64,000 nucleotides of DNA from Lachnospiraceae bacterium. GTDB lineage: Bacteria; Bacillota; Clostridia; Lachnospirales; Lachnospiraceae. The notes beneath the pieces were generated by a model. That model had not been told where the DNA came from. It searched no databases and saw only the letters and a program-made list of their open reading frames with translations. Location: the NCBI GenBank assembly GCA_017467805.1, contig JAFUKJ010000030.1, positions 59,656 to 123,655 on the forward strand, given 5' to 3'. Position 1 is the first letter of the stretch. Each line of letters begins with the position of its first letter. The translations under genes were made by a program, and so were the position numbers. Positions 7,980 through 64,000 of this stretch are shown piece after piece.

Positions 7980-8016
7980 ACAAAAAATGCAAGCCAATCT
8001 TCATCAGCCTGCATTT
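7980..8016 (-). terminator. Weak terminator-like hairpin after the 8015-8548 gene
   Basis: AAATGCA at 7985-7991 pairs with TGCATTT at 8010-8016 across an 18-nt loop. On the minus strand the stem runs into TTTTTTG and further T/A-rich sequence. The stem is only 7 bp. Confidence 0.4.
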
Positions 8017-8548
8017 ATGCTTTTCCAGTAAAATCTCCGTGTGTAATTTGGTCGCCGTAAGTCCCTGGGGTAATTTCATCTCCCATAATACTAAGCTCGC
8101 CTGCTTTGTCATAGGAATAAAGTAAATATCCTGCCTGATTAACAGAAATGTTTAAGCGTTCAAAAGCATTTCTACGCAATTCATCCCGTCTGGTCTTACG
8201 CTCTATGCTGTCCGGATGTATCAGCTCGGACTTTCTTTGTTCTTTCCCGTCTTTCCCCGCTGCCCTCTCTTCTGCGTCTCTTTTTCTCTGATTGGCAATC
8301 TGAGACACCTCCACAACTGTTAAATAGTGACTAGTCTTCGCATCACGCTTCGCTTCCTTCCAGCTTCTAGGCGGTTGTTCCATGGAAGATAGCTGCATTG
8401 CGGGATTATGCAGATACTTCTGTATCATCTCTGCTATCCCAGGCGCATCCTTTCTAAGATCCTGCGCAGTTGTAGCCTGTGCCTTGATATCCGCAACCTT
8501 CGAAAGAAACAATAATGATCTACTGTTCACCTTCCATGCCACCTCCAT
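8015..8548 (-). CDS. Uncharacterised charged protein
   Basis: I do not recognise this 177-aa protein. It is soluble, with no signal peptide or membrane segment. A lysine/arginine/glutamate-rich, probably helical centre spans about 65-125 (for example RKRDAEERAAGKDGKEQRKS). The C-terminus is glycine-rich (GDEITPGTYGDQITHGDF). The start is uncertain: the ATG at 8548 has no ribosome site, and the only GGAGG lies inside the first codons, so a downstream GTG (for example at 8530) may be used. It stands alone between the ECF pair and a divergent zinc-ribbon gene. Long uninterrupted frame and matching base composition support it as a real gene. Confidence 0.55.
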   Translation of the reverse strand: MEVAWKVNSRSLLFLSKVADIKAQATTAQDLRKDAPGIAEMIQKYLHNPAMQLSSMEQPPRSWKEAKRDAKTSHYLTVVEVSQIANQRKRDAEERAAGKDGKEQRKSELIHPDSIERKTRRDELRRNAFERLNISVNQAGYLLYSYDKAGELSIMGDEITPGTYGDQITHGDFTGKA

Positions 8549-52884: not shown

Positions 52885-55263
52885 ATGAACGAGAAAGCAT
52901 TACGAATACTGGAATTTCATAAAATAATAGATATGCTGACAGAGAAGGCGAGCTCTGCTCCAGGAAAGGAGCTTTGTAAGAAGCTGACACCTTACTCTGA
53001 CTTAGATACAATTGAGACCGCACAGACGCAGACTGCGGATGCATTTACCCGCCTAATCAAGGGCGGACGCATCCATTTTAGTGGTAATAAGGACATCAGC
53101 TTTAGCATCAAATCCTTAGAAATAGGCAGTACTCTGTCAGTTTCTGAATTATTAAAAATTGCCGCATCCTTATCTTGTGCAAGTCAGGCAAAGGCTTTTG
53201 CGCGTAAAGAGAATGACGAAGAAATCATCGACAGCCTGCAGCCACTTTTTGAGGTACTTGCACCACTTACTCCACTTCAAAATGAGATTACAAGATGCAT
53301 CATTTCTGAGGAGGAGATTGCAGATGATGCAAGTCCAACCTTAAAGCATATCCGAAGAAGTATGCAGATTACCAACGATAAGATTCATTCCCAGCTGACA
53401 GGCATGGTAAACAGCTACCGTAACTATTTGCAGGACGCTGTTATCACCATGAGGAATAACCGCTATTGTATTCCCGTTAAGGCAGAGCATAAGTCCAATG
53501 TACCTGGTATGATTCATGACCAGTCCTCAACAGGCTCCACTCTTTTCATCGAGCCTGCGGCAATTGTGAATCTGAATAACCAGCTTAAGGAATTGTCCTT
53601 ACAGGAGCAGGAGGAAATCGAGGTTATCATGGCAACCTTAAGTGCGCAGGCAGCTGAGCATACAGAAGAGCTTATGATTAATTATAAGACCTTGACCGAG
53701 CTTGATTTTATCTTTGCTAAGGCAGGGCTTGCGATAGACATGAATGCATCAAGACCACTCTTTAATGACAAGCATATCATTCATATTCGCAAGGGACGTC
53801 ATCCGCTTTTGGATAAGAAGAAGGTTGTCCCTATTGATATTATGTTAGGTCGTGACTTTGATTTATTGATTGTTACAGGTCCAAACACTGGTGGTAAGAC
53901 CGTTTCGCTGAAAACAGTTGGACTTTTCACACTAATGGGACAGGCAGGTCTTCATATCCCTGCACTTGACCGTTCAGAGCTTTCCCTCTTTACTGAGGTG
54001 TACGCAGATATCGGTGATGAGCAGAGTATTGAGCAAAGTCTCTCTACCTTCTCCTCACATATGACAAATATTGTTTCCATACTGGCTCATGCTGATGAGA
54101 ATTCTCTATGTCTTTTCGACGAGCTTGGTGCAGGTACTGACCCGACAGAAGGTGCGGCATTGGCGATTGCTATCCTTAAACATTTACACGACAGAGGTAT
54201 TCGTACTATGGCAACTACTCACTACAGCGAACTGAAAGTATTTGCTTTGACTACCTCCTATGTAGAGAATGCCTGCTGTGAATTTGATGTAGAAACCCTT
54301 CGTCCGACTTACAGACTTCTGATTGGTATTCCAGGTAAGAGTAATGCCTTCGCTATTTCTTCTAAGCTGGGACTTTCCGATGAGATTATCGAATCAGCCA
54401 AGGAACATTTGACCGAAGAAGATGAGAGCTTCGAGGACTTACTGGCAGACTTAGAGGCAAACCGCCGTACTATTGAGGCGGAGCGTGCAGAGATTGCAAG
54501 CTATAAGGCTGAAATCTCCGCTTTAAAGGATAAGCTGGCACAGAAGCAGGAGCGCTTAGATTCCCAAAAGGACAGAATCCTTAGAGATGCTAACGAAGAA
54601 GCAAGAAAGATTTTACAGGATGCAAAGGATGTTGCAGATGAAACCATTCGTAACTTCCAAAAGGTTGGTTCTAACACCTCTATCAAGGATATGGAAAAGG
54701 CAAGAACCAAGGTTAGAGATAAGATTAGTGAAAAGAATTCCAAGCTGGCTTCCAATGAAGCAAAGCCTACTCATAAGATATTAAAGCCTACTCAGATTAA
54801 GCCTGGCGATATGGTTAAGGTAGTTTCCATGGGCTTAAAGGGTACGGTTTCCTCCAAGCCAGATGCCAAGGGTGATTTATTCGTCCAGTGTGGTATTATC
54901 CGTTCCAAGGTAAATATTAAGGATTTGGTTTTAATCAATGAAGACGCTATGCCTGCTGTTGGTGGATTTAAGAAACAGTCCAACCATAGCTCACGCATCG
55001 GCATGTCCAAGACTGCAACCATTTCCACAGAGATTAATCTGTTAGGAAAGACAGTTGATGAAGCCTTATCCATGCTGGACAAATACTTGGATGATGCTTA
55101 TCTTTCACATATTCCAAGCGTTCGTATCGTACACGGTAAGGGTACTGGTGCATTACGAACTGCTGTACAAAGACATCTTAAGCAGGTATCCTATGTCAAA
55201 TCCTTCCACCTTGGAGAATTTGGCGAGGGCGATGCAGGCGTAACCATAGCAGAATTTAAATAA
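52885..55263 (+). CDS. mutS2: MutS2 ATPase/endonuclease
   Basis: DNA- or ribosome-acting MutS-family ATPase, 792 aa. Core domains are followed by Walker A GPNTGGKTVSLKT (about 332), Walker B LCLFDELGAGTDPTEG (about 408) and a helical ATTHYSELK segment. A long coiled coil spans about 500-620, then a KOW-like segment (GDMVKVVSMGLKGTV) and a C-terminal Smr domain (about 715-792) with INLLGKTVDEALSML and HGKGTGALRTAV. MutS2 suppresses recombination in some species and splits collided ribosomes in B. subtilis; the Smr motif here is HGKGTG. It heads an operon with a two-component system. Confidence 0.95.
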   Translation: MNEKALRILEFHKIIDMLTEKASSAPGKELCKKLTPYSDLDTIETAQTQTADAFTRLIKGGRIHFSGNKDISFSIKSLEIGSTLSVSELLKIAASLSCASQAKAFARKENDEEIIDSLQPLFEVLAPLTPLQNEITRCIISEEEIADDASPTLKHIRRSMQITNDKIHSQLTGMVNSYRNYLQDAVITMRNNRYCIPVKAEHKSNVPGMIHDQSSTGSTLFIEPAAIVNLNNQLKELSLQEQEEIEVIMATLSAQAAEHTEELMINYKTLTELDFIFAKAGLAIDMNASRPLFNDKHIIHIRKGRHPLLDKKKVVPIDIMLGRDFDLLIVTGPNTGGKTVSLKTVGLFTLMGQAGLHIPALDRSELSLFTEVYADIGDEQSIEQSLSTFSSHMTNIVSILAHADENSLCLFDELGAGTDPTEGAALAIAILKHLHDRGIRTMATTHYSELKVFALTTSYVENACCEFDVETLRPTYRLLIGIPGKSNAFAISSKLGLSDEIIESAKEHLTEEDESFEDLLADLEANRRTIEAERAEIASYKAEISALKDKLAQKQERLDSQKDRILRDANEEARKILQDAKDVADETIRNFQKVGSNTSIKDMEKARTKVRDKISEKNSKLASNEAKPTHKILKPTQIKPGDMVKVVSMGLKGTVSSKPDAKGDLFVQCGIIRSKVNIKDLVLINEDAMPAVGGFKKQSNHSSRIGMSKTATISTEINLLGKTVDEALSMLDKYLDDAYLSHIPSVRIVHGKGTGALRTAVQRHLKQVSYVKSFHLGEFGEGDAGVTIAEFK

Positions 55264-55277
55264 GGAGGCTCACATAG

Positions 55278-55979
55278 ATGGTTAATAAACAAAAAATACT
55301 CATTGTAGATGACGATGAAAATATTGCAGAGCTTATTTCCCTGTATCTTACCAAGGAATGCTTTGAGACAAAGATTGTATATGATGGAGAATCCGCATTA
55401 CAGGCAGTTGATGCCTTTATGCCTGATTTGATTTTATTAGATTTGATGCTTCCAGGCATTGACGGCTATCAGGTGTGCCGTGAGGTGCGCCAAAAGTCCC
55501 AGACACCAGTTATCATCCTGTCTGCAAAGGGCGAGGTCTTTGATAAGGTACTTGGCTTAGAGCTTGGTGCCGATGACTATATAGAAAAACCATTTGATAC
55601 AAAGGAGTTAGTTGCAAGGGTTAAGGCTGTGCTTCGCCGCTATAAGGTTGCTGCACCTGCTGCACAGGCGCCTGCTGCCAAGCAGGTAAGCTATCCGAAC
55701 CTTACAATTAATTTGACGAACTATTCCGTTCTCTATAATGGTAAAAATGTTGATATGCCGCCAAAGGAGTTGGAGCTATTGTATTTTCTTGCATCCTCTC
55801 CAAATCATGTATTCACAAGAGAGCAGCTCTTAGACCAGCTATGGGGCTATGAATATATTGGCGATACCAGAACAGTAGATGTTCATATCAAGAGATTACG
55901 CGAGAAGATAAAGGACCATGATACCTGGAGAATTGCAACTATCTGGGGTATCGGTTATAAGTTCGAGGTAAAGAGCTAG
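55278..55979 (+). CDS. OmpR/PhoB-family response regulator
   Basis: DNA-binding response regulator, 233 aa. Receiver domain with acidic pocket DDDEN (11-15), phospho-acceptor Asp55 in LILLDLMLPG, Ser82 and Lys104 (IEKPFD). An Ala/Pro linker (VAAPAAQAPAAKQ) joins a winged-helix domain (about 135-230) with EFLLYFLASSPNHVFTREQL-like sequence and DTRTVDVHIKRLREKIK. AAGGAGG lies before the start, 14 bp after mutS2, and the kinase gene follows after 16 bp. The stimulus is unknown. Confidence 0.94.
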   Translation: MVNKQKILIVDDDENIAELISLYLTKECFETKIVYDGESALQAVDAFMPDLILLDLMLPGIDGYQVCREVRQKSQTPVIILSAKGEVFDKVLGLELGADDYIEKPFDTKELVARVKAVLRRYKVAAPAAQAPAAKQVSYPNLTINLTNYSVLYNGKNVDMPPKELELLYFLASSPNHVFTREQLLDQLWGYEYIGDTRTVDVHIKRLREKIKDHDTWRIATIWGIGYKFEVKS

Positions 55980-55995
55980 AAAGGACTCTGACACG

Positions 55996-57405
55996 ATGAA
56001 ACGTACATTATATTTAAAATTTGTACTTGCCTATATTATTTTTGGCTTATTTGGTTTTATTGTAGTAGCTTCCTTTACTTCCAGTATGACCTTGGAACAA
56101 TTAAAGCGCGAACGTGCAAATGCACTTTATAAGGAAGCGGTATTGATTTCCAACACCTACGCTGCAGACCTTTATAACAGTGAGGTTACCTTAGAATCTG
56201 TATGGCGTCAGGTTGAGGCTATTGACACCTTCCTGAATGCTCCCGTATGGATTGTAAACCCTTCAGGTCTGGTAGTCGTGGACTCCCGTTCTCCATTGAA
56301 TATTGAGAATCCCGTTACTATCCCTGGCTTTACGCCAACAATTACAGGTAACTCCTACTATACGGTGGGCAATTTCTTTGGAATGTTTGAAGAGGACACG
56401 ATATCTGCCTTTGCGCCAATTACCTCTCAGTATAAGGTACAGGGCTATGTAATTATTCATGGTTCTATGACGGACTTGCAGAAATCCGCTAATTCTCTGT
56501 TGAATATTTCTTATTTAACTTTGATTATTTTATTTCTGCTGTCACTAATTATTTTGTTATTCTTTACGAGTATTGTTTATATTCCGCTTCGCAAGATTAC
56601 ACATGCCACAGAGCAGTACGCTATAGGTAATTTCCACTATGAATTTCAGGTGGATAGTGAGGATGAAATCGGTTACCTTGCAGCGTCCCTTGCCTATATG
56701 GCGAGCGAGGTTGCTAAGAGCGAGGATAATCAGAAGCGTCTGGTTGCCAATATTTCACACGACTTCCGTTCACCGCTTACCTCTATGCGAGGCTATCTGG
56801 AAGCTATGCTGGATGGAACCATTCCGCCAGAGCTTCATGAGAAATACATGGGCGTCGTATTGAATGAAACAGACCGTTTGACAAAGCTTACAAACTCACT
56901 GTTAACACTGAATAACCTAAATACTAAAGGCATGATATTGGACAAATCCGTCTTTGATATCAATCAGGTCATCAAGAATACTGCAGCATCCTTTGAAGGT
57001 ACATGCCGTACTAAGCTAATTACGATTGAGTTGATATTAACAGGGGAATATATGAATGTAAATGCTGACATGGTTAAAATCCAGCAGGTACTTTACAATC
57101 TTGTAGATAACGCTATTAAGTTTAGTCACAAGAATTCCTCTATTAAAATCGAGACCATCGAGCGTTCCAATAAGCTTTTAGTCTCTGTTAAGGATAACGG
57201 TATCGGTATCCCTAAGGAAAGCCTCAAACTTATCTGGAATCGCTTCTACAAGACTGATTTATCCAGAGGAAAAGATAAGAAAGGAACTGGTCTCGGACTT
57301 TCCATTGCCAAGGAAATTATCCACTCTCACAATGAAAACATTAATGTTGTCAGCACCGAGGGTGAAGGAACAGAATTTATCTTTACATTAGAAAAAGCGC
57401 CATAA
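55996..57405 (+). CDS. Membrane sensor histidine kinase
   Basis: Partner of the upstream response regulator, 469 aa. Helix 1 at about 7-28; an extracellular sensor of about 140 residues (PAS/Cache-like, TPTITGNSYYTVGNFFGMFE); helix 2 at about 170-195; HAMP (about 195-245). The HisKA domain has ANISHDFRSPLTSMRGYLEA with His255. The ATPase domain has N-box DNAIKFS, G1 VKDNGIGIPKE and G2 GTGLGLSIAKEI. The last codons form one arm of a terminator. The signal is unknown. Confidence 0.94.
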   Translation: MKRTLYLKFVLAYIIFGLFGFIVVASFTSSMTLEQLKRERANALYKEAVLISNTYAADLYNSEVTLESVWRQVEAIDTFLNAPVWIVNPSGLVVVDSRSPLNIENPVTIPGFTPTITGNSYYTVGNFFGMFEEDTISAFAPITSQYKVQGYVIIHGSMTDLQKSANSLLNISYLTLIILFLLSLIILLFFTSIVYIPLRKITHATEQYAIGNFHYEFQVDSEDEIGYLAASLAYMASEVAKSEDNQKRLVANISHDFRSPLTSMRGYLEAMLDGTIPPELHEKYMGVVLNETDRLTKLTNSLLTLNNLNTKGMILDKSVFDINQVIKNTAASFEGTCRTKLITIELILTGEYMNVNADMVKIQQVLYNLVDNAIKFSHKNSSIKIETIERSNKLLVSVKDNGIGIPKESLKLIWNRFYKTDLSRGKDKKGTGLGLSIAKEIIHSHNENINVVSTEGEGTEFIFTLEKAP

Positions 57406-57420
57406 ATTTGGCGCTTCTTT
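57395..57420. terminator. Terminator at the end of the mutS2/two-component operon
   Basis: AAGCGCC (57395-57401) pairs with GGCGCTT (57410-57416) and runs into TCTTTTATTT. The left arm is inside the kinase coding region. On the minus strand A-rich flanking gives a T-tail for the HAD locus. Confidence 0.75.
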
Positions 57421-57423
57421 TAT

Positions 57424-58065
57424 TTAAGAAATACTCTGCATTAATGCTGGTAAATCTGAAAACTGTTCTATTGTATAATCAGGAGCAACTGCCTCACCAA
57501 AGCCATATGCTGCAAACACGAAAGGAATACCCGCAACCCTTGCAGACTCCTCATCTCCTGCTGTATCACCAACATAAACAGCATTATGAATCTGATTGCG
57601 TTCCATAATAAACTTATTATTCTCGCCCTTTGGCACCATATTATCTCCCCAGCACTGAGTATCATCGAAATATGCCTCAAGCTTATGAGCCTTTATAAAT
57701 GCCTCTATATAGCCGCTCTGGCAATTACTTACTACAAACAATTTATAATGCTTCTTAAGCTCTGCCAATGTTTCCTCTAACTTTGGAAAAAGAATTCATC
57801 CGTGCTCACTCAGATAATTATTCTCTAACTCACAGCATTCATCCATTAACTGCTGCTGCTCCTCTATAGTACTGTTCACAAACATTCTTCTGGCAATCTC
57901 TGTCATTGGCAAACCAAAGTAGCTGCCCAGTTCTTCTGCCGTAAGCAAACCTCTCTTGCACTCAGGATGCTTCTCTATTACCATATTCCAGGTCTTTAAT
58001 ACACCGTCTGCTGAGTCCCATAAGGTTCCATCCAAATCAAATAAAATCGCTTCTATCCTTCCCAT
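57424..58065 (-). pseudogene. HAD-family phosphatase (Gph-like) interrupted by an in-frame TGA
   Basis: Haloacid dehalogenase-type phosphatase that would be 213 aa. The N-terminal half from the ATG at 58065 has the nucleophile motif ILFDLDGTLWDS and the helical cap (LDGTLWDSADGVLKTWN). It is stopped by TGA at 57798-57796 after YLSEHG. The same frame continues without any shift: ILFPKLEETLAELKKHYKLF, then VVSNCQSGYIEAF (motif II), the motif III Lys, and YVGDTAGDEESARVAGI (motif IV). One change, TGA from a glycine codon GGA, would restore the usual protein. It is either a recent nonsense mutation or a sequence error; a second reading start inside the C-terminal half is possible. Confidence 0.8.
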
Positions 58066-58091
58066 AGCTTCCTCATTTCCGATATGGGTAT

Positions 58092-58604
58092 CTAACCAAA
58101 TACCCTCATAAACCACTGCTTTAATTCCTGCAATCTGGTCGGTTTATCATGCTTCACCTTAATTGCAAGCGTAGTCTCAAATCCATTTGTCTCATATAAT
58201 CGAAGCGCTCTTTCATTCCATGCAGCCACATGCAATATAATCGGTAAAATCTTCCTCTCCTGCATCATCGCAACCGCAGTATAAAGCAGCTTCTTGCCAT
58301 AACCTTGTCCCTGAAACCTCGGATTTACAATGACATCATCAATCTCATTATCGCACAACACAAACGAGCCAACAATGACATTTTCTTGCAAATAAAGATA
58401 AATTTTGTCCTTTCTTTCTGCAAGCTGTTCTGCACTCTGATAATAATGATATGGCTTTACATCCAATGCCCTTCTCATTTCAAAAAAGCACTCATTATAT
58501 ATTTGCATATATTCATCTGCATATTTGTCTTCAAAGGGAACAAGTGTCAATATCGGCACCTGTTCTCCTCCTACATACTTCATTTCATAGGCTATGATAT
58601 TCAT
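58092..58604 (-). CDS. GNAT family N-acetyltransferase
   Basis: Acetyl-CoA-dependent transferase of unknown substrate, 170 aa. The acetyl-CoA site is in DDVIVNPRFQGQGYGKKLLY (about 88-107: V-x-x-x-x-Q-G-x-G). The C-terminal LHVAAWNERALRLYETNGFE fits the last strand-helix of the fold. AGGAAG ribosome site. It lies 19 bp after the GH25 gene and before the HAD locus on the same strand, so it may share their transcript. Confidence 0.88.
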   Translation of the reverse strand: MNIIAYEMKYVGGEQVPILTLVPFEDKYADEYMQIYNECFFEMRRALDVKPYHYYQSAEQLAERKDKIYLYLQENVIVGSFVLCDNEIDDVIVNPRFQGQGYGKKLLYTAVAMMQERKILPIILHVAAWNERALRLYETNGFETTLAIKVKHDKPTRLQELKQWFMRVFG

Positions 58605-58623
58605 ATCTTCCTATCCCTCGTTC

Positions 58624-59736
58624 CTACTGCTCGGTAGTCTCCAAATCCGCTGTCAGCGCATAGAAAATTTCTCCATTATATTCCACCATTGACCAACCAT
58701 TACTGCCTACTGCTACGCGTTGCGCCAGCTCATCCATACGAAGCACTGCTACCGCCTCCACATCGTCACTGGCAGACGGCTCAAGCTTCAATGCTGTATC
58801 ACGCTTTGCAATTACCTTATCCGTCATAGCTGCGTACGACACTGCACTTTTAGGTGCTTCCACAAGTTCATATGGAGTTGTATCCTTAGGCTCTGCAACT
58901 GTATCAGGTGTAAAATAAGCAATGTTTAAATCCACGCTTCTGGATATCCCTGGAACAACTCCTTTGTATGTGAATTGCCAGCAGGCATAGTCACCTGTAT
59001 ATGAGGTACGGGGATTATCCTGCAGTAAAGTCCCTGGATATTGAGAAACCCATATGTCATATTCTGCATCTATTTTCTTGGTATTCCAATAATTGCTGCT
59101 TTGTAGTTCATTCTTTGATGCATAGAACATTCCTTCATATCCCTGAGACTCTACCAACTCCAAAAATGCCATGGCATTAGCTGAACGAATATCATTGGAC
59201 AAGTTATAATTACGGCTTCCATAGGTTTTAAAGCCCTCACAGTTGTATGCAACAGGATACGAAATCTTATACTGTGCAATATAGGCGCAGGTCCATGCCG
59301 CCTCTTCCAATGCTTCCTCTACATTGATTGCCGTAGAAAAAAAGTACGCACCAATCTTAATCCCTGCTGTTTCTGCCTGCTGTAGATTATACTTTGCATA
59401 AGGGTCCTCGAAAATGACTCCTGTATTCGCCGCACGATAACCTACTCTGATAAAAGCAAAATCAACCCCTGCAGCCGCAACCTCCTGCCAGTCAATCTCG
59501 CCCTGCCATTTGGACACATCAATTCCAACACTGACATCTTCCGCTTCATGCTCCCGCACATAGGACTTTACATCTGCAAAGTGATAGAAAAGACCTTCTG
59601 CCGCGGACTCTGCATCCTGCATATCCTCCTGCTGCGCGCCGAATTCAACTGCATCCGTATTCTTTTGTCGTCCACAGCCTGCAAGCATCACGCACGCTAT
59701 CAGCACCAGAATTGCATATTTTCTTACTCTTTGCAT
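58624..59736 (-). CDS. GH25-family muramidase-like lipoprotein with SH3-like C-terminus
   Basis: Surface-anchored cell wall hydrolase candidate, 370 aa. The signal peptide ends in the lipobox LAGC (Cys21). The GH25 domain (about 68-275) starts with GIDVSKWQGEIDW, with DFAFIRVGYR and ACWQFTYKGVVPG downstream. The usual catalytic D-x-E of YPVxYDxE reads YPVAYNCE, so Glu is kept but the first Asp is Asn. The last 65 residues resemble an SH3_3-type wall-binding domain (VGSNGWSMVEYNGEIFYA). It may cleave peptidoglycan or only bind it. Confidence 0.88.
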   Translation of the reverse strand: MQRVRKYAILVLIACVMLAGCGRQKNTDAVEFGAQQEDMQDAESAAEGLFYHFADVKSYVREHEAEDVSVGIDVSKWQGEIDWQEVAAAGVDFAFIRVGYRAANTGVIFEDPYAKYNLQQAETAGIKIGAYFFSTAINVEEALEEAAWTCAYIAQYKISYPVAYNCEGFKTYGSRNYNLSNDIRSANAMAFLELVESQGYEGMFYASKNELQSSNYWNTKKIDAEYDIWVSQYPGTLLQDNPRTSYTGDYACWQFTYKGVVPGISRSVDLNIAYFTPDTVAEPKDTTPYELVEAPKSAVSYAAMTDKVIAKRDTALKLEPSASDDVEAVAVLRMDELAQRVAVGSNGWSMVEYNGEIFYALTADLETTEQ

Positions 59737-59762
59737 TGTCTGTTTCCTAAATCAAATTATTC

Positions 59763-61757
59763 TTAACAAATCTCTGCGCCTGAAGGCATAGTCTTCTCAG
59801 GTGTCATTAACGCAAGGTTACCCTCTGCATCCTCTGCACATAAAAGCATACCCTCAGAAACCACACCAGCAAGCTTAGCAGGCTTTAAGTTTACTAATAC
59901 CATAACCTTCTTACCTACCATCTCTTCTGGTGTATAATGTGCCTTGATACCTGACACAATCTGCTTTACCTGGCTACCAATCTTAACCTGGCTGCAAAGA
60001 AGCTTCTTAGACTTTGGAACTGCCTCGCAGGCAATAATCTCGCCTACCTGGAACTGCATCTTAGCGAAATCATCATACTCAATCTCTGCCTTTGCCTCGA
60101 TATCAATAACTGCCTCATCTGTCTTTACTTCCTCTGTCTCACCGTTAAGCTTTCTCTGTTCTGCCTCGTACTCAGCCTTCTGAGCCGCCTGTAATGCCTC
60201 AACCTTAGGCATAATCTCCTTAACATCAAGACGTGCAAATAAAATTTCAGGTGTCTCTGTAACCTTATTGCCACTCTCATATAAACCAAACTTACCTAAA
60301 TCATCAAAGTCACGAAGTGATGTATTAAGCTGCTTTACAATTCTCTCTGCTGTCTCTGGTAAGAAGCTGTGAAGAAGGCTTGCACCAACAGTAATAGACT
60401 CTACTAAATTATAGAGAACCTCTGCCAATCTGTCCTGACTAGCCTCATCCTTCGCCAATACCCAAGGCATTGTCTCATCGATATACTTGTTGCAACGTCT
60501 AAACAAATCAAATACTGCTGTGATTGCATCCGCTACACGAAGCTTAGCCATCTTCTCTTCAACCTTTGCTCTTGTGCCTGTTACAACAGCCTTCAAATCC
60601 TCATCAAAGCTATCTGTTACGCCTGTACTCTTTACTACACCGCCAAAGTACTTATTGCTCATGGAAACTGTACGATTTACAAGGTTTCCTAAGATATTTG
60701 CAAGATCAGAGTTGAAGCGCTCTACTACAAGCTCCCATGTAATCACACCATCATTCTCAAATGGCATCTCATGAAGTACGAAGTAACGTGTTGCATCAAC
60801 TCCGAATAAATCTGCCATATCATCTGCATAGATAACATTTCCCTTAGACTTACTCATCTTGTCGCCACCCTGTAAAAGCCATGGATGACCGAATACCTGC
60901 TTTGGTAATGGAAGATCTAATGCCATTAAGAAAATAGGCCAGTAAATGGTATGGAAACGAACAATATCCTTACCAATTAAGTGCAAATCTGCAGGCCAAT
61001 TCTTAGCAAATAACTCATTAGAGCCGTCTGGGTCATAACCAATCTTAGTGATATAGTTGGTTAACGCATCAAGCCATACATATACAACGTGCTTTGGGTC
61101 AAAATCTACAGGAATTCCCCATGTAAAGGAAGTTCTTGACACACACAAATCCTGAAGTCCTGGTAATAAGAAATTATTCATCATCTCATTCTTACGGGAT
61201 ACAGGCTGAATAAACTCAGGATGTGTATTAATATGCTCAATTAATTTGTCCGCATACTTACTCATCTTAAAGAAATATGCCTCTTCCTTCGCTGGCTTAA
61301 CCTCACGACCACAGTCAGGACACTTGCCGTCTACTAACTGTGACTCTGTCCAGAAGGACTCACAAGGTGTACAATATAAGCCTTCATAAGCACTCTTATA
61401 GATATCGCCCTTATCATATAACTTCTTAAAAATCTTCTTAACACACTGCTCATGGTCTTCATCTGTAGTACGAACAAAATTATCATAAGAGGTATTCATC
61501 AAATCCCAGATTCTCTTAACCTCTCCTGCGATTGGGTCTACATACTCCTTTGGAGTGATGCCTGCTGCCTCTGCCTTCTCCTGAATCTTCTGACCATGCT
61601 CGTCAGTTCCTGTCTGAAAATATACATCGTAACCCTCTGCCTTCTTATATCTTGCAATCGCATCAGCAAGAATAATCTCATAAGTGTTACCAATATGCGG
61701 CTTGCCTGATGTATAGGCAATCGCTGTTGTCATGTAAAATTTACCTTTGTTCTGCAT
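59763..61757 (-). CDS. metG: Methionyl-tRNA synthetase with C-terminal tRNA-binding domain
   Basis: Charges tRNA-Met, 664 aa. GAGGAG six bases upstream favours the ATG at 61757 over an in-frame ATG 13 codons earlier. The Rossmann domain has the HIGH-like PHIGNTYE and the KMSKSKGN loop; the zinc knuckle CTPC...CPDCGR is complete. A C-terminal EMAP/Trbp111-type domain (about 560-664: DFAKMQFQVGEIIACEAVPK, VKIGSQVKQIVSGI) is fused. It lies 86 bp after the DapF-like gene; both are downstream of a methionine T-box, so expression should respond to uncharged tRNA-Met. Confidence 0.95.
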   Translation of the reverse strand: MQNKGKFYMTTAIAYTSGKPHIGNTYEIILADAIARYKKAEGYDVYFQTGTDEHGQKIQEKAEAAGITPKEYVDPIAGEVKRIWDLMNTSYDNFVRTTDEDHEQCVKKIFKKLYDKGDIYKSAYEGLYCTPCESFWTESQLVDGKCPDCGREVKPAKEEAYFFKMSKYADKLIEHINTHPEFIQPVSRKNEMMNNFLLPGLQDLCVSRTSFTWGIPVDFDPKHVVYVWLDALTNYITKIGYDPDGSNELFAKNWPADLHLIGKDIVRFHTIYWPIFLMALDLPLPKQVFGHPWLLQGGDKMSKSKGNVIYADDMADLFGVDATRYFVLHEMPFENDGVITWELVVERFNSDLANILGNLVNRTVSMSNKYFGGVVKSTGVTDSFDEDLKAVVTGTRAKVEEKMAKLRVADAITAVFDLFRRCNKYIDETMPWVLAKDEASQDRLAEVLYNLVESITVGASLLHSFLPETAERIVKQLNTSLRDFDDLGKFGLYESGNKVTETPEILFARLDVKEIMPKVEALQAAQKAEYEAEQRKLNGETEEVKTDEAVIDIEAKAEIEYDDFAKMQFQVGEIIACEAVPKSKKLLCSQVKIGSQVKQIVSGIKAHYTPEEMVGKKVMVLVNLKPAKLAGVVSEGMLLCAEDAEGNLALMTPEKTMPSGAEIC

Positions 61758-61843
61758 AATTATCTCCTCAACCTTTCTATTAGTGATTACCCGCAAGAAA
61801 TTAATTATTCTGCTGCGGGAGTGAATTTATATAAAGAATCCTT

Positions 61844-62236
61844 TTAACAGCAATCCTTCAATTCCTTAATGTTATATTTCTCTATAAATCCGTCGCAAAA
61901 TGCCATTCTACATACCTTGTGCACTCCGTCATCACAGCTCATGCCACTGTTAGAGCGTGGCGTAGTCTGATATCCTGCATCTGCTAAATATTTGGCAAAT
62001 ACTTTAATATCCTCTACCTGTGGCTGGGCTAATGTTCCGTCAGGATTATAAAGCTCTAATGTCATCTCATCATCCTTCATAATAGGACCTACGAGAATCT
62101 TCTTCGTAATTAGTCCCACACTCTGGCTGCACATGACGCGGGCTTCCCTTGTACCAAATGCATAATGGTACTTGTTACAATCATAAATCAGATATTCATT
62201 TTCGAGATATTCGTACTTTTGTAATTCTAATCCCAT
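61844..62236 (-). CDS. Half-length diaminopimelate epimerase-like protein
   Basis: The 130-aa protein resembles the N-terminal half of DapF: LQKYEYLENEYLIYDCNKYH matches the KMHGLGNDFVVID-type start and LELYNPDGTLAQPQVEDIKV/FAKYLADAGY matches the region of FNxDGSEAxMCGNGIRCFAKYL. The catalytic Cys loop (CGNGxR) is replaced by QPQVED, so epimerase activity is not expected. It has a cysteine-rich end (SCDDGVHKVCRMAFC...CC). GGAGGG ribosome site. It is the first gene after the Met T-box and is followed by metG. The resemblance is from visual comparison only. Confidence 0.6.
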   Translation of the reverse strand: MGLELQKYEYLENEYLIYDCNKYHYAFGTREARVMCSQSVGLITKKILVGPIMKDDEMTLELYNPDGTLAQPQVEDIKVFAKYLADAGYQTTPRSNSGMSCDDGVHKVCRMAFCDGFIEKYNIKELKDCC

Positions 62237-62250
62237 TGAAAGCCCTCCAT

Positions 62251-62285
62251 AAAAAAATCTCGTCCTTATAAAATAAGGACGAGAT
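62251..62285 (-). terminator. T-box intrinsic terminator
   Basis: ATCTCGTCCTTAT (62257-62269) pairs with ATAAGGACGAGAT (62273-62285); on the minus strand seven T follow (62251-62257). It competes with the antiterminator formed by the T-box sequence. Confidence 0.85.
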
Positions 62286-62520
62286 AAAAACTCGTGTTAC
62301 CACCTTAATTCGCTCTGCTCTCACAAGCAAAGCCTCCGCAGGTACGCATGATACCCTGTCGCTATAACGGGCGAACCCTGTCGCAGCCTTATCGTAACCG
62401 ACTCGGTGCGCTGCTCAGAAGCCATGTTCAGCATACTCTCTTCTCATCCCTCGCAGCCCTGACACACGCCAGTAGGATGTTCTCTGTAGGAATACCATAT
62501 ACTTACTCTCTTCATCATCG
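62251..62520 (-). promoter_or_regulatory. T-box leader, methionine type
   Basis: Transcription-attenuating T-box on the minus strand controlling the DapF-like gene and metG. The T-box sequence GGTGGTAACACGAG is at 62291-62304; its UGGU bulge fits the ACCA end of tRNA-Met, which has discriminator A. Upstream is a Stem I with AGAGAGTA elements (two copies) and the specifier loop CTGAACATGGCTTCTGAG, where ATG (62423-62425) reads as the Met codon. The terminator 62257-62285 follows. Promoter position is not clear; the leader start is estimated. Confidence 0.85.
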
Positions 62521-62595
62521 CTTTTCGAATATTGATATAGTAATACTTTAGCACCAATTATAGATTTTGTAAATAACCATATTTTATCTTTCCGC

Positions 62596-64000
62596 TTACA
62601 CAAGCTCTTCCAGCTTTCTCTTAACCTCATTAAGGGAGCTTACGATAACATCTGCAGATGCTGCAATCTCCTGTGCTACTGCTGCCAAATTCTGTGTACG
62701 CTCACTGATATCCTCAACACCTACCCCAAGCTTCTCTGTTTCAGCCTGTATCTCTCCAATAGACTGCTGAATCTTACCTTGTGATGTCTGACTCATGCTC
62801 GCTGTTTCTTTAGAGCTTCCTGCAAGATGATTGATTTCATCTGCGACAACTGCAAAGCCTCGTCCCGCCTCGCCTGCTCTTGCAGCCTCAATAGATGCAT
62901 TCAAAGCTAGTAAATTCGTTTGAGAAGCAATAGATACTACGGCGTCATTATTCTGAGCCAATTCCTTAATCAACGAATCTATCTCCTGCATAGAACCACC
63001 TAAATTATTACAAAAATCAACAATTTCTGATACACGGGCTGAAATATCATGACACTCTGTCGCCGTATTACTATTTCCCCTCGACAACTCATCAACTGCA
63101 TGATAGATACTTTCAACAGCTTCATTAATTTCAGCAATAATCAGCTTTACCTTTTCATTCTGCTCAGTAATCATATCCTTTTCAAGCTGAACATCCTGCG
63201 CAAGATTCACTGCAAGATTCTTCTCATGCTCTACCTCGTTCTTCAGGTAATAAATACAATTCTCCTTATGATTAAAGCCATTGAAAATAGCTGTAGCCAT
63301 CTCTCTACAGGTGTCATATCCACAGCAGGAACAGTTAATCGCACGCTCTACCTGCGTATTCTTATTTAACTGTTTGAAAATCTCATCATACTGCGCTTCT
63401 GTAGGCTTTTGATAACCACACTTCGCAGACCTATCTGTATATGTACATAGATAATCATTCAAATCCAGCTTTGCAAAGTGCTTATTTAACTGCTTTAAAC
63501 GCTGACTCGGAGTAAGCTTCTTAGACCATTCGCTTCGTATGGTCTTCTTCTTACTATTCTTACGAATCTCTGCAATCGTAGTCAACGCATCATCACTTTC
63601 ACCCTTCATAGGGTCAATACCAGTTCCATACAAGCATCCTGCCGAGCAATTCAAAGCATCATAGAAGAGATACGGATTCTTACCCTTGGCAATCGCTTCT
63701 TTATTCTTCTCCAGATAGTGATACATATGGCTCTCACCTTCTATCTGACGAATCAGAACATCCTCTCCAAGGAACCAGTATACATTTTCCTTCAAGCCGC
63801 CAGGTGTCGGGTATACCGAACCAAGACCATACTCTATTTCATCCTTGCAGGAAGGTCCCTGAACATGGTGTTCTTTTACATATTTCATTAAATGATCAAA
63901 GGTGACGTTATAAGAAATGAGTCCTTTACCACGCTCTGAAGTCATTTCAAGCTTCTTGGCAATACAAGGACTAATAAAGGCAAGCTTGTCCGTAATTCCC
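62596..64000 (-). CDS. FeFe-hydrogenase-domain/4Fe-4S/chemoreceptor signalling fusion (5' end outside window)
   Basis: The minus-strand frame stays open to the window edge; 467 residues are visible. The first part matches the FeFe-hydrogenase large-subunit C-terminal domain: [11 protein letters not shown] (cf. the MPCTAKK H-cluster motif) and [13 protein letters not shown] (cf. the ACPGGC motif), so two Cys motifs for the H-cluster are kept; the TSCCPAW motif would be outside. A second set CSCCGYDTC + 17 residues + C fits a 4Fe-4S FeS domain. The end is an MCP signalling coil with [20 protein letters not shown] and [16 protein letters not shown], with no HAMP or membrane helix. Probably a cytoplasmic redox or hydrogen sensor; catalytic activity is not implied. 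Confidence 0.88.

Follow-up and report, generated by a model that had tools for sequence, protein, structure and literature searches.

What might a chemoreceptor sense whose input part is made of hydrogenase sequence, and is such a protein encoded by one intact gene? The question is raised by the last reading frame of the window, i.e. the whole stretch of 64,000 nucleotides of Lachnospiraceae bacterium DNA that was analysed. The original prediction described a soluble receptor that reads H2 or the redox state with a hydrogenase-like cofactor and steers motility.

The receptor gene and its division between two contigs

The receptor frame (62596-63999, minus strand) was read as 467 residues with no 5' end within the window. 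It is open at position 63999 because contig C18 of genome G000 (123655 bases), whose end is also that of the window, stops there. A frame of 449 residues beginning with ATG can be read at the same locus, and its start is an internal methionine, not the start of the gene. The features of the window piece are listed below; pocket residues are numbered as in CpI (e.g. K358 for the lysine of SPCIAKK).

62596..63999, minus strand: 3' two thirds of the receptor gene, 467 codons plus stop
63625..63981, minus strand: Fe_hyd_lg_C, C-terminal half of the H-domain (Pfam, model positions 125-244 of 245)
63952..63972, minus strand: SPCIAKK, H-cluster motif L2, with a cubane cysteine and the lysine at CpI K358 (residues 10-16, by reading and column alignment)
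63634..63651, minus strand: NCSAGC, H-cluster motif L3, with two cubane cysteines (residues 117-122, by reading and column alignment)
63250..63339, minus strand: FeS domain PF04060, Cx2Cx4Cx16C (Pfam, E 1.1e-5, residues 221-250, above the cut-off)
62602..63003, minus strand: MCP signalling hairpin, MCPsignal PF00015 with conserved tip (Pfam, residues 333-466)

The Fe_hyd_lg_C match (E 6e-10, residues 7-125) lies above the Pfam cut-off, as does MCPsignal (E 6.5e-26, 91.6 bits with respect to a cut-off of 34.6), and the PF04060 cysteines are C223, C226, C231 and C248. With the domains above their cut-offs and the motifs present, the predicted joining of hydrogenase-type cysteine motifs, an FeS domain and an MCP domain in one frame was confirmed. 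The claim that membrane helix and HAMP domain are both missing is likewise supported: none of the 16 Pfam families listed for the window piece with E up to 1 is HAMP, and the 19-residue mean hydropathy peaks at only 1.43 (at most 1.57 in 79 relatives), too low for a membrane helix to be predicted.

The missing 5' part was located by a whole-genome search at the end of contig C57 (L002, 1246-1794, 183 residues). This frame carries the other half of the H-domain, so that the expected hydrogenase sequence does lie upstream, as well as two ferredoxin motifs, CVGCNKCISVC and CIACGACFDVC, which are followed by SQPCPAVV. Of the two upstream marks named in the original prediction, the N-terminal ferredoxin clusters were thus found and TSCCPAW was not: the TSCCP form with the proton-transfer cysteine, which marks groups A and B, is replaced by SQPCP in L002. 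In the profile built from relatives, model positions 4-178 match C57 and 181-648 match C18, and the two contig ends therefore join within about two codons. By far the simplest reading is that the two pieces are one gene cut by an assembly break. From the motifs, four FeS sites are predicted per chain, in the layout of sensory (group C) hydrogenases: two N-terminal [4Fe-4S], H-domain, C-terminal FeS and signalling domain. The window piece and its relative L046 score below the NCBIfam cut-offs for catalytic hydrogenases (L046 by a wide margin, with 143 bits as compared to 450 for B1).

L081, the named relative nearest to the window piece (62% identity), was modelled with AlphaFold2 from a 50-row alignment (mean pLDDT 84, pTM 0.66). 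The model comprises a mixed domain up to about residue 420, a helix at 430-555, a turn at 556 and a helix at 557-649; the first long helix begins right after the last FeS cysteine (C429) and reaches the hairpin turn. The 50 matches listed by Foldseek for this model are [FeFe]-hydrogenases (HydA of HydABC, DdH, CbA5H and CpI) and HydA2 of an H2-dependent CO2 reductase, at 17-20% identity and a probability of 1.00. A hydrogenase fold is predicted in this way for the sensory half of the receptor.

An Rfam scan of positions 55000-64000 gave no RNA match at the gathering score beside the receptor gene. No conserved neighbour genes were seen when the adjacent frames of 70 residues or longer (three per side at most) were clustered for 79 loci; the biggest cluster covered 10 of the 79, in mixed positions. 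Downstream of the receptor gene, a 130-residue frame of the window (61844-62236, minus strand) had no Pfam match at E ≤ 0.001.

Relatives, exchanged outputs and chemotaxis partners

Of 200 genomes from the same family, 59 gave a match to the window piece used as query. These were split by score into 43 carriers of the receptor module (best match of at least 80 bits) and 16 more distant genomes, taken as PAS type; three of the latter loci were read (L167, L169 and L170), and PAS was identified by Pfam for L167 only. Three carriers (G053, G077 and G084) showed only a kinase form, and the MCP domain was recognised, by motif or Pfam, in the other 40, the piece in G029 being incomplete where its contig ends (L179).

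Scanning of the collection of named genomes yielded at least 590 pattern matches and at least 565 confirmed relatives, of which 80 loci were kept. SQPCP, SPC[IV]AKK, LNCxxGC, CxxCGYxxC and the MCP tip were present in one frame in 79 of them (L122, with no frame by pattern, was dropped), and the whole order of ferredoxin, H-domain, FeS and MCP hairpin in 78 of the 80, the ferredoxin motifs having been recognised by pattern in 77 and by eye in L079, whose printed start shows both. The ferredoxin part of L063 is out of frame by a stop, an in-frame TGA at 8001-8300 of this Roseburia hominis An869 locus that may reflect strain-level decay or a sequencing error; the frame of L006 is shortened in much the same manner. 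The titles of 66 of the 80 loci name Lachnospiraceae, Roseburia, Butyrivibrio, Pseudobutyrivibrio, Acetatifactor or Agathobacter. In the phylum as a whole, matches at E ≤ 1e-40 were obtained in 43 of 398 genomes, under 21 family labels, when three candidates were scored per genome, and some of these matches fall short of the MCP part.

The output behind the module varies. Most frames read carry an MCP domain, with an additional receiver in L011. In other frames the module sits on a histidine kinase with receiver (L164, and L016, whose frame leaves the locus inside the receiver), on one with Hpt (L158), on a PAS-kinase-receiver protein (L160) or on GGDEF-EAL (L153 and, by frame reading, L168). 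In a 64-row tree, which is midpoint-rooted and in which long branches connect the PAS and receptor groups, the 45 receptor-module rows (L032 and L171 being the same protein twice) fall on one side of a branch supported by 100/100, which separates them from groups A, B1 and the PAS type. At least four changes on the starred branches of this tree are required for the MCP label, and outputs have therefore been exchanged repeatedly.

The CheW domain was detected in 112 of the 200 family genomes. It accompanied the MCP form in every case (40/40 carriers), as compared to 72 of the 160 other genomes, with a Fisher p of 3e-12 that overstates the independence of related genomes, though 199 genera are represented among the 200. 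The only module carriers that lack CheW, G053 and G084, both show the histidine-kinase form alone. This association supports the view that the receptor works with CheA and CheW and, with it, the predicted steering of motility. The genome of the window (G000) itself contains one CheA match, 4 CheW-domain matches (one perhaps belonging to CheA), 34 MCP matches (32 above cut-off) and 9 flagellin-N matches on contigs C93, C96, C104 and C42. The flagellin matches on C93 and at the start of C96 have equal score and model range and may be a repeat interrupted where the contigs end.

Pocket residues and known relatives of the H-domain

The pocket was compared in a column alignment of 45 module rows, i.e. 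44 rows and the window piece. All four cubane cysteines are kept in the 44 rows, and the window piece has three of them, the fourth being in L002; the retention of the H-cluster cysteines in homologues, on which the original prediction depended, is thus borne out. The lysine at K358 is kept in all 45 rows. In CpI this lysine acts at the diiron site, and its conservation throughout the alignment points to the possible use of a diiron site. The main clade has Pro at the proton-transfer position C299, Leu at M497, Tyr at F417, Ser at M353 (Gly in L032/L171) and Met, Leu, Val or Ala at Q325, and by eye these pocket motifs are alike in genomes with and without maturases. The distant members L154 and L168 have intact cysteines and have lost other pocket residues, including, in L168 (outside the alignment), the lysine. 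The frequencies reported for sensory sequences, a set that may itself include the receptor family, are Cys 17%, Ala about 43%, Pro about 10% and Ser about 10% at C299, and Gly about 51%, Ser about 32% and Thr about 17% at M353 (PMC10055695, in the part dealing with these positions).

Catalytic [FeFe]-hydrogenases (CpI, TmHydA, group B1) have the predicted fold and the four cubane cysteines in common with the receptor, and those of group A differ from it at C299, Q325, M353, F417 and M497. When the profile was aligned with solved hydrogenase chains, only the first 250 positions or so were matched, with the third motif aligned as a weak second stretch. Sensory hydrogenases are closer in layout. 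According to the passages describing them, group C HydS (TmHydS and the PAS-containing M2f) shares with the receptor the two N-terminal [4Fe-4S] sites, the H-domain and the C-terminal four-cysteine FeS domain, but has PAS where the receptor has MCP; TmHydS also has the Tyr at F417. The local PAS-type members (L167, L169, L170) keep TTCCP and lie outside the receptor clade. Group D TamHydS (M2e) agrees with the receptor in its first three parts and in the Cx2Cx4Cx16C spacing at the C-terminal side, with Ala at C299, and the passages at hand mention no PAS or other output domain for it. At the other end of the protein, the MCP hairpin matches the solved signalling domains 2ch7, 3ja6, 3g6b and 3g67 (E 2e-28 to 7.5e-24), whose chains contain no hydrogenase-type sensor.

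The idea of a chemotactic hydrogenase is not new, because HydDB in 2016 named an [FeFe] group C2 "chemotactic (putative)", with its role given there as undetermined; in the passage concerned, an H-domain protein is proposed to sense H2 through MCPs (PMC5037454). The wording of that passage is "via" MCPs, and the receptor is likened to C2 by description only. In an acetogen survey, group C2 matches were discarded at validation, as stated in the corresponding passage (PMC9431212). No characterised chemotactic [FeFe]-hydrogenase homologue was found in the open-licence PMC literature searched: the word chemotaxis is absent from the main text of PMC13104023, PMC8163306 and PMC10407848, and the relevant passages of the group C and D sensor papers describe PAS or no such domain. 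The statement that fusions to MCP tips are much less described is thus appropriate for experiments in this literature, and fails for the family as such, which is widespread and has been named since 2016. The receptor belongs to a widespread, already named kind that is uncharacterised in the literature searched, although relatives are encoded at hundreds of loci in genome assemblies.

What the receptor may read

The explanation that we prefer, and to which we give about an even chance of being right, is that of a membrane-free chemoreceptor reporting the reducing state through a chain of clusters, for which a diiron site is not strictly needed. The two N-terminal [4Fe-4S] clusters, the H-domain cubane and the C-terminal [4Fe-4S] would form an electron chain, with at least the [4Fe-4S] cubane bound in the H-domain. 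This chain would read the reducing state of the cell, in the form of reduced ferredoxin and, if the diiron site is present, also of H2. The redox state of the clusters would be the signal, which may go directly from the FeS domain to the signalling helix and from the receptor through CheW to CheA, biasing flagellar swimming. If it is true that the receptor reads H2 or the redox state of ferredoxin, the bacteria could navigate by the currency that is central to anaerobic fermentation. We counted in favour of a redox receptor that the module goes with CheW and shows no link to HydF, and that it has Pro at the proton-transfer Cys, Leu at M497 and a changed Q325; the lysine at K358, kept in all rows, was counted against it. 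A broader form of this explanation sees a branch of the [FeFe]-hydrogenase fold turned into a signalling input, which has kept the cubane half, works without the diiron half and serves chemoreceptors, histidine kinases and c-di-GMP enzymes as a receptor of redox, not of H2. We offer this form tentatively, as somewhat improbable in its entirety.

The main alternative is a true H2 chemoreceptor, in which a complete H-cluster ([4Fe-4S] and diiron) binds H2 and signals via the FeS relay, as envisaged for HydDB C2. This is a real possibility, a little under which we would place the broader form just described, and a redox receptor perhaps without need of the diiron site ranks slightly ahead of it. 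The four cubane cysteines and the lysine speak for an H-cluster, and the Ser at M353 and the Pro at C299 are within the sensory range given above. TmHydS and TamHydS also lack the proton-transfer Cys and, in the passages concerned, are nevertheless described with functional H-clusters; the Tyr at F417, too, is that of TmHydS. The Leu at M497 points the other way, since M497L in a prototypical enzyme left the [2Fe] cluster not properly integrated, though TmHydS, which has Ser at that position, does incorporate it (PMC10055695, in the part on this position).

The maturases weigh on both sides. Among the 200 family genomes, HydF was above cut-off in 117 (with eight candidates scored per genome), HydG in 100 and HydE in 117, split or gapped genes being counted as absent (as for HydF in G085). 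All three were found in 21 of the 40 MCP-output carriers, in agreement with an H2 receptor; against it, 14 of the 40 (11 of them at least 95% complete) had none of HydE, HydF and HydG above cut-off, and carriage of the module was not associated with HydF (28/43 carriers vs. 89/157 others, p 0.38). Carriers with and without HydEFG are natural variants that make it testable whether the diiron site is needed for sensing. The genome of the window, one of the 14 carriers with none, gave no maturase above cut-off, its best matches being generic (HydF 5.8e-27, HydG 5.6e-52, HydE 4.4e-17). As this genome is 95% complete in 121 contigs, the maturase operon could have been lost to an assembly gap; maturases are also absent from the sole genome of the same genus (99% complete), which has no receptor match either.

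That a genome without maturases makes no H-cluster was considered as a decisive argument and rejected. The other hydrogenase of the window's genome (L001) belongs to group B1 (617 bits as compared to the NCBIfam cut-off of 450) and has the motifs TSCCPSW, GPCASKK and MACPGGC. A hydrogenase-domain protein at E ≤ 1e-50 was present in 62 of the 77 genomes without any of HydE, HydF and HydG above cut-off (e.g. G196, G022 and G135). All H-cluster motifs were found in 9 of 20 high-scoring proteins sampled from maturase-less genomes and in 3 of 20 from genomes with all three, one protein per set (L196, L221) having been missed by the pattern and scored as not intact. Because intact catalytic-type hydrogenases occur in maturase-less genomes, the absence of HydEFG is no proof that the H-cluster is absent; either maturation follows another route, or the site is used otherwise, or divergent genes escape the models. 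That maturases are missing from a few species which have genes for [FeFe]-hydrogenases was reported in a 2011 profiling, in the passage on this point (PMC3226654).

In the same samples, a TSCSPGW variant was found in 10 of the 20 proteins from maturase-less genomes and in 16 of the 20 from maturase-positive ones. This motif, in which Ser replaces a cubane cysteine of prototypical enzymes, is therefore present in 26 of the 40 sampled proteins, maturases or not (L187-L195, L200, L207, L209-L216, L218-L220, L222-L224 and L226), and was also seen in L126 and L127.

Compared with a receptor that follows the reducing state, a sensor of FeS damage appears improbable. In such a receptor the loss or oxidation of clusters by O2 or NO would act as the switch, resulting in avoidance of air and not in attraction to reductant. 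Four predicted FeS sites per chain would suit this function, in bacteria that are presumably strict anaerobes. TlpD of Helicobacter is a soluble receptor. It is among the taxis receptors that respond to the internal energy state (PMC4820699), and shows that receptors of this kind exist. Damage sensing leaves unexplained why the hydrogenase fold has been retained whole, together with every cubane ligand, when a small FeS domain would suffice. Finally, an assembly chimera of two genes, or a decayed pseudogene, as the division between two contigs might suggest, has a negligible probability. The chimera was rejected, given the meeting contig ends, the same fusion within one frame in 78 of the 80 kept loci, which also answers the concern that it is an artefact, and the full-length frames that other genera of the family contain.
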